Positions 32,332 to 59,265 of a stretch of 59,464 nucleotides of DNA are shown here, in pieces. This DNA comes from an uncultured Clostridia bacterium. GTDB taxonomy: Bacteria > Bacillota > Clostridia > Christensenellales > UBA1242. The DNA lies in contig CALVNQ010000005.1 of the NCBI GenBank assembly GCA_944349895.1, positions 1-59,464 of the forward strand, given 5' to 3'. The stretch's first letter is position 1; every line of letters begins with the position of its first letter. The position numbers and the translations under genes were made by a program. The notes beneath the pieces were generated by a model. It was not told the origin of the DNA. It saw nothing but the letters and a program-made list of their open reading frames with translations, and did not search any database.

Positions 32332-32344
32332 AAAAAAAGAAGTT

Positions 32345-32459
32345 GATAAAGTATAACTCTTTTTTATCTTGATTTAGTAGGGGAATCGAACCCCTGGGTT
32401 CGTGGGGCCCCCGAAAATGAATTTTCATTTTTGGGGTAAGGTTCCCCTAGGGACTACCA
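32345..32459 (+). repeat. tRNA-Glu-tail repeat unit 1
   Basis: A 115-bp unit with, in order: a hairpin/T-run (GATAAAG...TTTTTTATC); a left arm TAGGGGAATCGAACCCCTG that is a slightly altered inverse of the tRNA-Glu T arm; hairpin CGAACCC/GGGTTCG (32387-32402); hairpin CCCCGAAAATG/CATTTTTGGGG (32409-32436); and a right arm TTCCCCTAGGGACTACCA identical to the tRNA 3' end through CCA. TAGGGGAA (32378-32385) and TTCCCCTA (32442-32449) close both hairpins in one structure. Confidence 0.85.
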
Positions 32460-32472
32460 TAAAAAAAGGAGT

Positions 32473-32587
32473 GATAAAGTATAACTCTTTTTTATCTTGA
32501 TTTAGTAGGGGAATCGAACCCCTGGGTTCGTGGGGCCCCCGAAAATGAATTTTCATTTTTGGGGTGGGGTTCCCCTAGGGACTACCA
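32473..32587 (+). repeat. tRNA-Glu-tail repeat unit 2
   Basis: Second copy of the preceding unit, offset by 128 bp. By eye it differs only at two bases near the right arm (TAAGG against TGGGG). It again ends with the tRNA-Glu 3' end ACTACCA. Downstream, to 32667, I see only AT-rich sequence. Confidence 0.85.
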
Positions 32588-56153: not shown

Positions 56154-56220
56154 TATTTATTTTCAGCGCTGGGACAGGCGTTAAACACATCTGAAATGCG
56201 TTGGAAATGAAAAATCACAT

Positions 56221-56344
56221 GCTGGTGTGGGCAGTCGGGTTTCCCTGAAAATGCTCGCATTTTTAGGATGAAGTCGGGTTCCCTGAAAATGCTCGCATTT
56301 TTAGGGCACAGTGGCAGACGCATGGGGCTTAAAAGTCCTGTGCG
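56221..56344 (+). pseudogene. broken tRNA-Leu copy interrupted by two hairpin repeats
   Basis: GCTGGTGTGG (56221-56230) repeats the first ten bases of tRNA-Leu. Two tandem 35-39 bp units follow (56233-56306). Then GTGGCAGACGCATGGGGC and TTAAAAGTCCTG resemble the D and anticodon arms of tRNA-Leu(TAA), altered. The flank TCACATGCTGGTGTGG is shared with the intact gene at 56387. No 3' half is present, so this cannot be a working tRNA. Confidence 0.7.
56233..56306 (+). repeat. tandem hairpin repeat, two units
   Basis: AGTCGGGTTTCCCTGAAAAT begins unit 1 (56233) and a copy lacking one T begins unit 2 (56272). Each unit folds as CCCTGAAAATGC/GCATTTTTAGGG with a 2-nt loop (the first unit ends AGGA). 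The arms resemble the second hairpin of the tRNA-Glu units (CCCCGAAAATG/CATTTTTGGGG). Confidence 0.8.
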
Positions 56345-56386: not shown

Positions 56387-56472
56387 GCTGGTGTGGCGGA
56401 ATGGCAGACGCACAGGACTTAAAATCCTGAGAGGGCAACTTCGTGTGGGTTCAAGTCCCACCACCAGCACCA
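56387..56472 (+). tRNA. tRNA-Leu (anticodon TAA)
   Basis: 86 nt with encoded CCA and a long variable arm. GCTGGTG pairs with CACCAGC, the anticodon arm is AGGACTTAAAATCCT with anticodon TAA, and the T arm is GTGGGTTCAAGTCCCAC. Confidence 0.95.
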
Positions 56473-56476
56473 GGAG

Positions 56477-56499
56477 ACAAGCCGTCAGGCTTGTTTTTT
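56477..56499 (+). terminator. terminator of tRNA-Leu
   Basis: ACAAGCC, loop GTCA, GGCTTGT, then T6. Most of it is duplicated at 56794-56814. Confidence 0.85.
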
Positions 56500-56630
56500 A
56501 TAATTTGATGGGACTTGAACGGGCGGAAAAGCAAAGGCAGCGGTGACTGCGTTTGCCCGCCCCGGCGTGATAGCCTGCTTTGCCTCTTGCGCATGCTTCA
56601 AAGGCGGAGCAAGTCCCACCACCAGCACCA
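56479..56630 (+). repeat. tRNA-Leu-tail repeat unit, copy 1
   Basis: A 152-bp unit: most of the terminator; a left arm ATGGGACTTGAAC (inverse of the tRNA-Leu T arm); GC-rich hairpin 1 with GGGCGG/CCGCCC and GCAAAGGCAG/CTGCGTTTGC (56521-56562); hairpin 2 GCTTTGCC/GGCGGAGC (56577-56610); and a right arm CAAGTCCCACCACCAGCACC ending in A, the exact tRNA-Leu 3' end. TGGGACTTG (56509-56517) and CAAGTCCCA (56610-56618) close the structure. It is much more GC-rich than the surrounding chromosome. Confidence 0.85.
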
Positions 56631-56773
56631 CAAAAATTGTCGCCTTGTAAGCTCACTTTCTTTTCGAAAGTTCGCGCGGACAGGCGCAATTTTTGTTTAT
56701 GCAGCCAAACGCAAGTCGACAAGCGACTTGGCCGCAACTGCCATCCGAAGCAGGTTTTGCAAGCGAGCGGATG
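56631..56773 (+). repeat. hairpin-rich spacer between the two tRNA-Leu-tail units
   Basis: CAAAAATTG-T-CGCC (56631-56644) pairs with GGCGCAATTTTTG (56683-56695), enclosing ACTTTC/GAAAGT. Next come CAAGTCG/CGACTTG (56712-56718 with 56724-56730) and CATCCG/CGGATG (56742-56747 with 56768-56773). There is no coding sequence that I can support. Confidence 0.7.
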
Positions 56774-56793
56774 ATTATATAAGTTTAATATAT

Positions 56794-56945
56794 AAGCCGT
56801 CAGGCTTGTTTTTTATAATTTGATGGGACTTGAACGGGCGGAAAAGCAAAGGCAGCGGTGACTGCGTTTGCCCGCCCCGGCGTGATAGCCTGCTTTGCCT
56901 CTTGCGCATGCTTCAAAGGCGGAGCAAGTCCCACCACCAGCACCA
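56794..56945 (+). repeat. tRNA-Leu-tail repeat unit, copy 2
   Basis: Appears identical to 56479-56630 base for base, offset by 315 bp. It again ends in the tRNA-Leu 3' sequence through CCA. Confidence 0.9.
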
Positions 56946-59200: not shown

Positions 59201-59226
59201 ATTAATGTTCAAATTGAAGTTATTTG

Positions 59227-59265
59227 TTCCCCTAGTTCAACGGATAGAACAAGCCCCTCCTAAGA
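59227..59265 (+). pseudogene. 5' half of a tRNA-Arg (CCT) copy
   Basis: GTTCCCCTAGTTCAACGGAT and AGAACAAGCCCCTCCTAAG match the first half of the tRNA-Arg at 59395 through the anticodon loop, then similarity stops. The 130 bp between the two copies are AT-rich with no supported gene. Confidence 0.8.

Follow-up and report, generated by a model that had tools for sequence, protein, structure and literature searches.

Insertion sequences of the IS200/IS605 type and REP-like elements carry, at the foot of a hairpin, a guide that pairs with the cleavage site, and small non-autonomous forms of these elements exist. Integron cassettes are kept in arrays, and their recombination point lies beside a folded single-strand hairpin with paired half-sites, the attC site. 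Phages and integrative elements use attB sites at the 3' ends of tRNA genes and leave tRNA fragments behind (PMC9897764). Furthermore, the T-loop of the tmRNA gene is occupied at four subsites by group I introns, which obey a rule of U before the intron and G at its end and whose average lengths range from 293 to 414 bp (PMC11915505).

The window analyzed here, a stretch of 59,464 nucleotides, is contig C5 of the 833,808-base draft genome of an uncultured Clostridia bacterium (G000, 23 contigs), and it contains, downstream of a tRNA-Leu(UAA) gene, two units whose shared core, termed module A, partly resembles each of these systems. Like the integrative elements of tRNA genes, module A has a tRNA target, a regenerated host gene, a direct repeat of the 3' fragment of that gene, and a precise empty site; unlike them, its units measure only about 130 to 160 bp, have no genes in the window, and each include an antisense copy of the target arm, and a single core serves about 25 tRNAs and the tmRNA with arms matched to each. 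With the tmRNA group I introns it shares the T-loop target, the U before the joint, the terminal G, and a guide pairing across the joint, but it is much shorter, has no recognizable intron core, and leaves the host gene uninterrupted, since a complete tail precedes the unit. With integron cassettes it shares the arrays and the folded hairpin with paired half-sites beside the recombination point, but it has no cargo and no integron integrase, its target is a T-loop, and its half-sites differ with each host tRNA. The guide of module A is 8 to 15 nt long and host-specific, unlike that of IS200/IS605 elements; its single hairpin complex also sets it apart, as does the absence of any match to the Y1 HUH transposase family (PF01797) in 12 of 14 carrier genomes. 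No published account of such units was found in a literature search that missed most subscription papers, and module A, with a size of about 90 to 100 nt, appears to be a mobile element of a kind not described before. Uncultured Clostridia MAGs, some of them related to Candidatus Onthoplasma and Caccopulliclostridium, are the nearest named relatives of G000. From the rest of G000, the sequence used was confined to the surroundings of tRNAs and units.

Anatomy of the tRNA-Leu(UAA) locus and related units

The host tRNA-Leu(UAA) gene was called at 56387..56472 on the + strand, as were the other parts of the locus and the tRNA-Glu units described below, with the T-loop joint U55|C56 between 56451 and 56452; its final 21 nt, C56-A76, occupy 56452-56472. 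An intrinsic terminator recognized in the sequence, ACAAGCCgtcaGGCTTGT-TTTTT (56475..56499), separates the gene from unit 1. The original prediction, that two apparently identical 152-bp copies lie 315 bp apart and that each combines an inverse T-arm with two hairpins and the tRNA 3' end, was borne out by a direct-repeat comparison: the copies at 56479-56630 and 56794-56945 are 100% identical with a start-to-start distance of 315 bp (exact identity not being provable without reads), and each contains an antisense T-arm, two hairpins, and the tRNA-Leu 3' end through CCA, with a 9-bp closing stem. The parts of each copy follow in the order of partial intrinsic terminator, antisense T-arm, GC-rich hairpin, second hairpin, GGAG, and 21-nt tail. 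The tRNA-Leu terminator is duplicated in part within the repeat, where the portion present, AAGCCgtcaGGCTTGTTTTTT, makes up most of it.

In unit 1, the antisense T-arm or "guide," TGGGACTTG (56509..56517), is the 5' strand of the closing stem P1 and pairs over 9 bp with CAAGTCCCA; together with the start of the core it reads GGGACTTG-AAC. The module A core (56518..56609), delimited by alignment, pair counts, and a covariance model, begins with AAC at 56518 and continues with the GC-rich hairpin, that is, the P2 stem (GGGCGG at 56521-56526 with CCGCCC at 56557-56562) and its inner hairpin P2a, the conserved linker CGGCGTGATA (56563-56572), the P3 hairpin (GC at 56573-56574 with GC at 56604-56605), and the terminal GGAG (56606-56609). 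The tail that follows, CAAGTCCCACCACCAGCACCA (56610..56630), is an exact copy of nt 56 to 76 (C56-A76) of tRNA-Leu(UAA), CCA included. The covariance model R1 matched unit 1 at 56509-56618, and the RNA fold of a window unit was more stable than those of dinucleotide shuffles (z = -3.27; n = 200). Beyond a spacer at 56631..56793, which holds a separate interspersed hairpin element, module D, lies unit 2, with its antisense T-arm at 56824..56832, a core identical to that of unit 1 at 56833..56924, and a tail of tRNA-Leu nt 56 to 76 at 56925..56945.

Module D was also seen at L058 (G000 C4:12921) and near tRNAs of a related genome (G005; C3 and C19), often directly after the CCA of a tRNA, and consists of a stem with compensatory sequence changes and a conserved CCAAACG..hairpin. 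Upstream of the tRNA-Leu(UAA) gene lies a 5' relic, a copy of the 5' part of the tRNA (56213..56344), which has two module B hairpins (CCCTGAAAATGCtcGCATTTTTAGGG) in its D-loop and an inverted copy of the anticodon arm; relatives of this relic are present at L059, L060, and L061. A 5' pseudo-copy of tRNA-Arg(CCU), found at 59217-59264 of the window, lies upstream of the tRNA with which the contig ends. All statements on modules B, C, and D were made by inspection, without models.

The expectation that other tRNAs of the genome would carry such units was met in a scan of tRNA flanks, in which 9 of 38 tRNAs examined in G000 had a flank containing 14 nt or more of the tRNA's own sequence, compared with 0.3% in a control with sequences of other tRNAs, so that the matches are not due to chance. 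The tRNAs with units on their downstream side are Lys-CUU, Leu-AAG, Leu-UAA, Glu-CUC, Asn, Met, and Ile; Ser-GGA, Ile, Leu-UAA, and Arg-CCU have mirrored units on their upstream side. Several module types make up the inner parts of these units, module A being the core of the Leu units of the window, and joints in D-, anticodon-, and V-loops were seen where the core is a different one. The Leu units had been predicted to have the same architecture as two units at tRNA-Glu(CUC) (32332..32587, about 128 bp each). The common plan was confirmed; however, the Glu core is module B, and its joint lies near T-loop position 58|59 rather than 55|56. The Glu units therefore share the plan of the Leu units and are not the same element. 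Module B also occurs at other tRNAs and away from tRNAs (e.g., at L080).

Upstream of tRNA-Ser(GGA) (L056; G000 C1:18000-21000), three tandem 93-bp mirrored units were observed in the order of tRNA nt 1 to 18, module B in antisense, and inverted D-arm, and a similar unit is present in another genome (G022, L171). Module C, found in sister species, has the form CCTGTCGGAnCC..GGCTAAAAAC..hairpin..GCGTCGCC and is inserted at joints in the anticodon or T-stem of Leu tRNAs (L176, L185, and L180), where it has inverted arms; a relative was seen at tRNA-Gln.

A conserved, covarying core at the T-loop of many tRNA genes

A total of 66 module A copies were tabulated, of which 59 had a tRNA or tmRNA upstream within the stretch retrieved, amounting to about 25 host genes when each copy was assigned to the nearest upstream tRNA; of the seven others, five were near contig ends and two had an integrated element between the tRNA and the core. 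The hosts included six Leu, four Ser, two Glu, and several Arg isoacceptors and the tmRNA, as well as tRNAs for Gly, Thr, Asp, Lys, Trp, His, Val, and Tyr. The direct repeat measured exactly 21 nt (C56-A76) in 29 of the 59 placed copies; three copies had 20 nt and one, at a tmRNA, had 25 nt. The tails of the remaining placed copies were mutated or cut, and a few tails did not match the nearest tRNA (e.g., L223 and L172). Because intact tails almost always start at C56, the joint is fixed at the T-loop position U55|C56. Polarity was constant: GGAG, at the 3' end of the core, abuts C56 of the host segment, and AAC, at the 5' end of the core, abuts that segment in antisense copy.

The antisense arm also tracked the host tRNA, reaching 15 bp in one genome (G667). 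The earlier inference that these are elements capturing the 3' end of the adjacent tRNA thus holds over about 25 tRNA species and the tmRNA: tail and antisense arm are both matched to the host, and the core is common to different tRNAs. At L239 (G137), module A lies downstream of the tmRNA gene; its core ends in GGTT instead of GGAG, and the repeat measures 25 nt. In another genome (G518), a tRNA-Ser gene without an encoded CCA is followed by a unit whose tail likewise has none; from this one case, the source of the tail seems to be the gene or a precursor and not the mature tRNA.

In an alignment of 16 module A copies from at least 11 genomes, AACGGG and GCGGAG were invariant and GGCrTGAwAGC was conserved. 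Eleven pairs of the module A stems had changed on both sides, cells with changes on both sides numbered 47 versus 15.3 in shuffles, and the covariation score was 0.328 versus 0.126 for shuffles and 0.02 to 0.08 for slid controls. The covariation of P1 is in part a consequence of having host tRNA as the 3' strand; P2 and P2a give an independent signal. The folded strand is the tRNA-sense strand, as 21 G.T pairs against 7 A.C pairs in P2 and P2a indicate. The module A core is thus a conserved, covarying three-way-junction fold, and the copies in the window have each of the defining properties of module A, namely, the U55|C56 joint, the conserved core with covarying stems, and the host-matched antisense arm.

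The covariance model found module A in 31 of 147 genomes (16 of 42 genera) of the family to which the window belongs, in 10 of 291 genomes across families of the class with its own family included, and in 6 of 299 genomes across the phylum, again including its own; divergent members will have been missed, because the model was built from related copies. Most genomes surveyed were draft metagenome-assembled genomes, and no expression data were available. Three carriers are single-contig genomes of about 3 Mb each (G588, G643, and G667). Rfam searches, run at the gathering level for the window and up to E = 5 for nine unit-bearing loci, gave no matches other than tRNA, tmRNA, L10 leader, and chance matches. 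Viral contigs, phages, and plasmids yielded no copy of module A and only one chance match, in Paracoccus.

Inferred spread of the core, alternative origins, and the search for an enzyme

The comparison of close relatives for presence and absence, proposed with the original prediction, yielded a precise empty site at L059, where the flanks shared with the window are 92 to 94% identical and the sequence directly 3' of tRNA-Leu equals that 3' of the unit 2 tail. This difference may equally well reflect loss at L059 or gain in the window, since recombination between tails would leave the same trace and units are carried at the tRNA-Leu(UAA) locus by G005, L060, L063, and L064. The presence of module A at Leu-UAA in several species of the genus implies that it is not a fast jumper. 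In addition, the orthologous copy at tRNA-His was eroded in two of three relatives (G643 and G714). At some loci, the terminator is also duplicated, and the duplicated tail plus terminator ends near the antisense arm; at others, the last copy of the array is a cut unit. Part of the history of the arrays is therefore ordinary tandem duplication.

Better evidence of movement than the empty site is given by the cores. Among the 24 cores from multi-copy genomes, 18 were closest to a core that sits at a different tRNA in that genome; in shuffles of this nearest-relative test over all 54 cores, the mean was 1.0 and the maximum 7. In G022, for example, nearly the same core occurs at Ser-CGA, Ser-GGA, Leu-AAG, and Leu-CAA, with arms that fit the host at the Ser tRNAs and at Leu-AAG (assigned from the tail sequence, because the contig ends before the tRNA) and a tail at Leu-CAA that differs from the nearest tRNA. 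The likeness of cores within a genome, combined with host-matched arms, suggests that the core spreads and that its two arms are remade to match each new host. A serious alternative to such rewriting is gene conversion among old units.

Gene conversion also enters the rival that survives best, which nevertheless remains unlikely: a cassette of tail, terminator, guide, and core would be cut out, either circular or as a folded strand, for recombination at T-loops by a tyrosine recombinase, as in integrons, with P1 acting like attC and the core spreading by gene conversion. The site-specific joint that regenerates the target gene, the cassette arrays, and the inverted half-sites around a folded core all agree with it, and the GTTCR of the T-loop has a resemblance, though only a loose one, to the GTTRRRY core site of integrons. 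However, a circle with the donor tail would leave the recipient tRNA with a mismatched 3' half. Module A also does not meet the pairing of the attC boxes RYYYAAC and GTTRRRY, in that AAC is present but GGAG stands on the folded strand where attC needs GTT. The supply of enzymes also counts against it. The tyrosine recombinases (PF00589) of G000 comprise one full protein and one weak fragment; the full protein scores best to XerS and reaches 88 bits against a cut-off of 265 bits for integron integrases, and its gene adjoins ORFs that, from a reading of the sequences, we take to be serine tRNA ligase-like and RecN-like. Furthermore, one genome (G014) has a module B unit and no PF00589 match.

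Other candidate enzymes fared no better. No match was found in G000 to the Y1 HUH transposases (PF01797), and none to reverse transcriptases (PF00078, RVT_1) in G000 or in most of the other carriers tested, and both families were rejected as general factors. A 380-amino-acid candidate recombinase in the 8-kb element of L266 has close relatives in only 5 of 147 genomes and none in G000 and, being this rare, is not a general factor. Although the short units have no integrase, an element with a large serine recombinase lies between the tRNA and the module A core at L266 (G150) and L267 (G079); that of L266 also carries a G2P-type Rep and a PD-(D/E)XK nuclease. These elements are probably later insertions. 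The integrative mobilizable elements (IMEs) of L266 and L267 and a tyrosine-integrase element at L299 resemble autonomous forms of the unit but were judged more probably to have inserted later beside the array: their recombinases differ, P1 is broken in L266, the tail at L267 belongs to another Ser tRNA, and L299 has a normal attR before the unit. With neither PF01797 nor PF00078 matched in G000 and its only full tyrosine recombinase XerS-like, the mover is unknown, lost, or the host's own machinery.

A functional RNA of tRNA operons, selected for read-through regulation or 3'-end processing and not mobile, would account for the conserved covarying fold on the tRNA-sense strand, for its usual place after the tRNA terminator, and for its presence at Leu-UAA in several species of the genus. 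We consider this improbable, since the occurrence is sporadic even in the family (the 31 of 147 genomes above), with different tRNAs in each; since the unit is precisely absent in a near relative and decayed in G643 and G714; and since core likeness follows the genome more than the tRNA.

Quite improbable as well is insertion by the logic of group I introns, in which an internal guide in the RNA would pair with both sides of U55|C56, the RNA would insert with its terminal G, and DNA copies would follow. The U before the joint and the terminal G of module A conform to group I boundary rules (with the exception of one tmRNA copy ending in GGTT), the pairing of the antisense arm spans the joint and runs in the order expected of an internal guide sequence, a tmRNA, whose T-loop also holds true group I introns, is among the hosts of module A (L239), and the folded strand is again the right one, tRNA-sense. 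Against this, a search of nine unit-bearing loci up to E = 5 revealed no Rfam match to group I introns or any other catalytic RNA family, about 90 nt is far below the size of a group I core, U55 pairs with A and not with G, and no reverse transcriptase match exists in G000 or most other carriers tested.

Debris of replication template switching at hairpin-prone tRNA genes, with fold-back copying producing inverted arms and slippage producing tandem copies, would explain the inverted and direct host fragments, the variable left border, the tandem arrays, and the joints of other-core units in D-, anticodon-, and V-loops, but it leaves unexplained both a conserved covarying core across classes of the phylum and a fixed 55|56 joint, and as the sole cause it is very improbable. 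An assembly artefact as the origin of the duplicated units can be dismissed with near certainty: the window genome is a 23-contig draft with several contigs ending at tRNA genes, but the element is also present in the single-contig genomes G588, G643, and G667, and divergent tandem copies exist in other genomes. Arrays of two or three slightly different copies occur in relatives of the window genome. The contigs of G000 that end at tRNA genes include C5, C11, C12, C16, C17, and C21, and many breaks at such genes are to be expected from unresolved unit arrays.

Proposed mode of insertion and its significance

The explanation we favor, with a probability of roughly 45%, is that the 152-bp unit is one copy of a group of small non-autonomous mobile elements (module A) that recognize the T-loop of tRNA and tmRNA genes and insert as a folded single strand. 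The core would move as such a strand. Its 3' end would be linked to C56 in the tRNA-sense strand and its 5' end to the other strand of that broken end, capping the downstream end like a hairpin. The capped end would then be copied and rejoined behind the intact tRNA and terminator, giving tRNA-terminator-[antisense arm-core-tail], and the tRNA would remain functional after the insertion. Recombination between tails could subsequently expand the array or remove it precisely. The mobilizing enzyme would act in trans and may be gone from the genome of the window. The joining and capping step is an inference from anatomy alone. The constant polarity of the core is what such capping would produce, and support comes from the tRNA-sense folded strand, from the loci at which the duplicated tail and terminator stop near the antisense arm, and from the single G518 case, in which the tail seems to derive from the gene or a precursor. 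The mirrored units upstream of tRNA-Ser have module B in antisense, as end-capping from the other side predicts; contrary to these, other upstream copies of module B are in sense.

A more far-reaching version, that an element of about 90 nt guided by nucleic acid inserts at one phosphodiester bond of the universal T-loop, re-derives both arms from the host, and moves folded through an unknown enzyme or its own RNA catalysis, is possible but tentative, and we would not rely on it. If true, it would represent a new class of mobile element, very small in size, whose target arm is programmable or rewrites itself and which is bound, across the Bacillota, to the loop most conserved in tRNA genes, and if the mover were found, a site-specific insertion system for tRNA genes would be at hand. 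Even if gene conversion alone is at work, module A is a structured element that is widespread and had no Rfam match in the covariance scans done, and tRNA fragments, pseudo-tRNAs, and assembly breaks gain a new source in these units.
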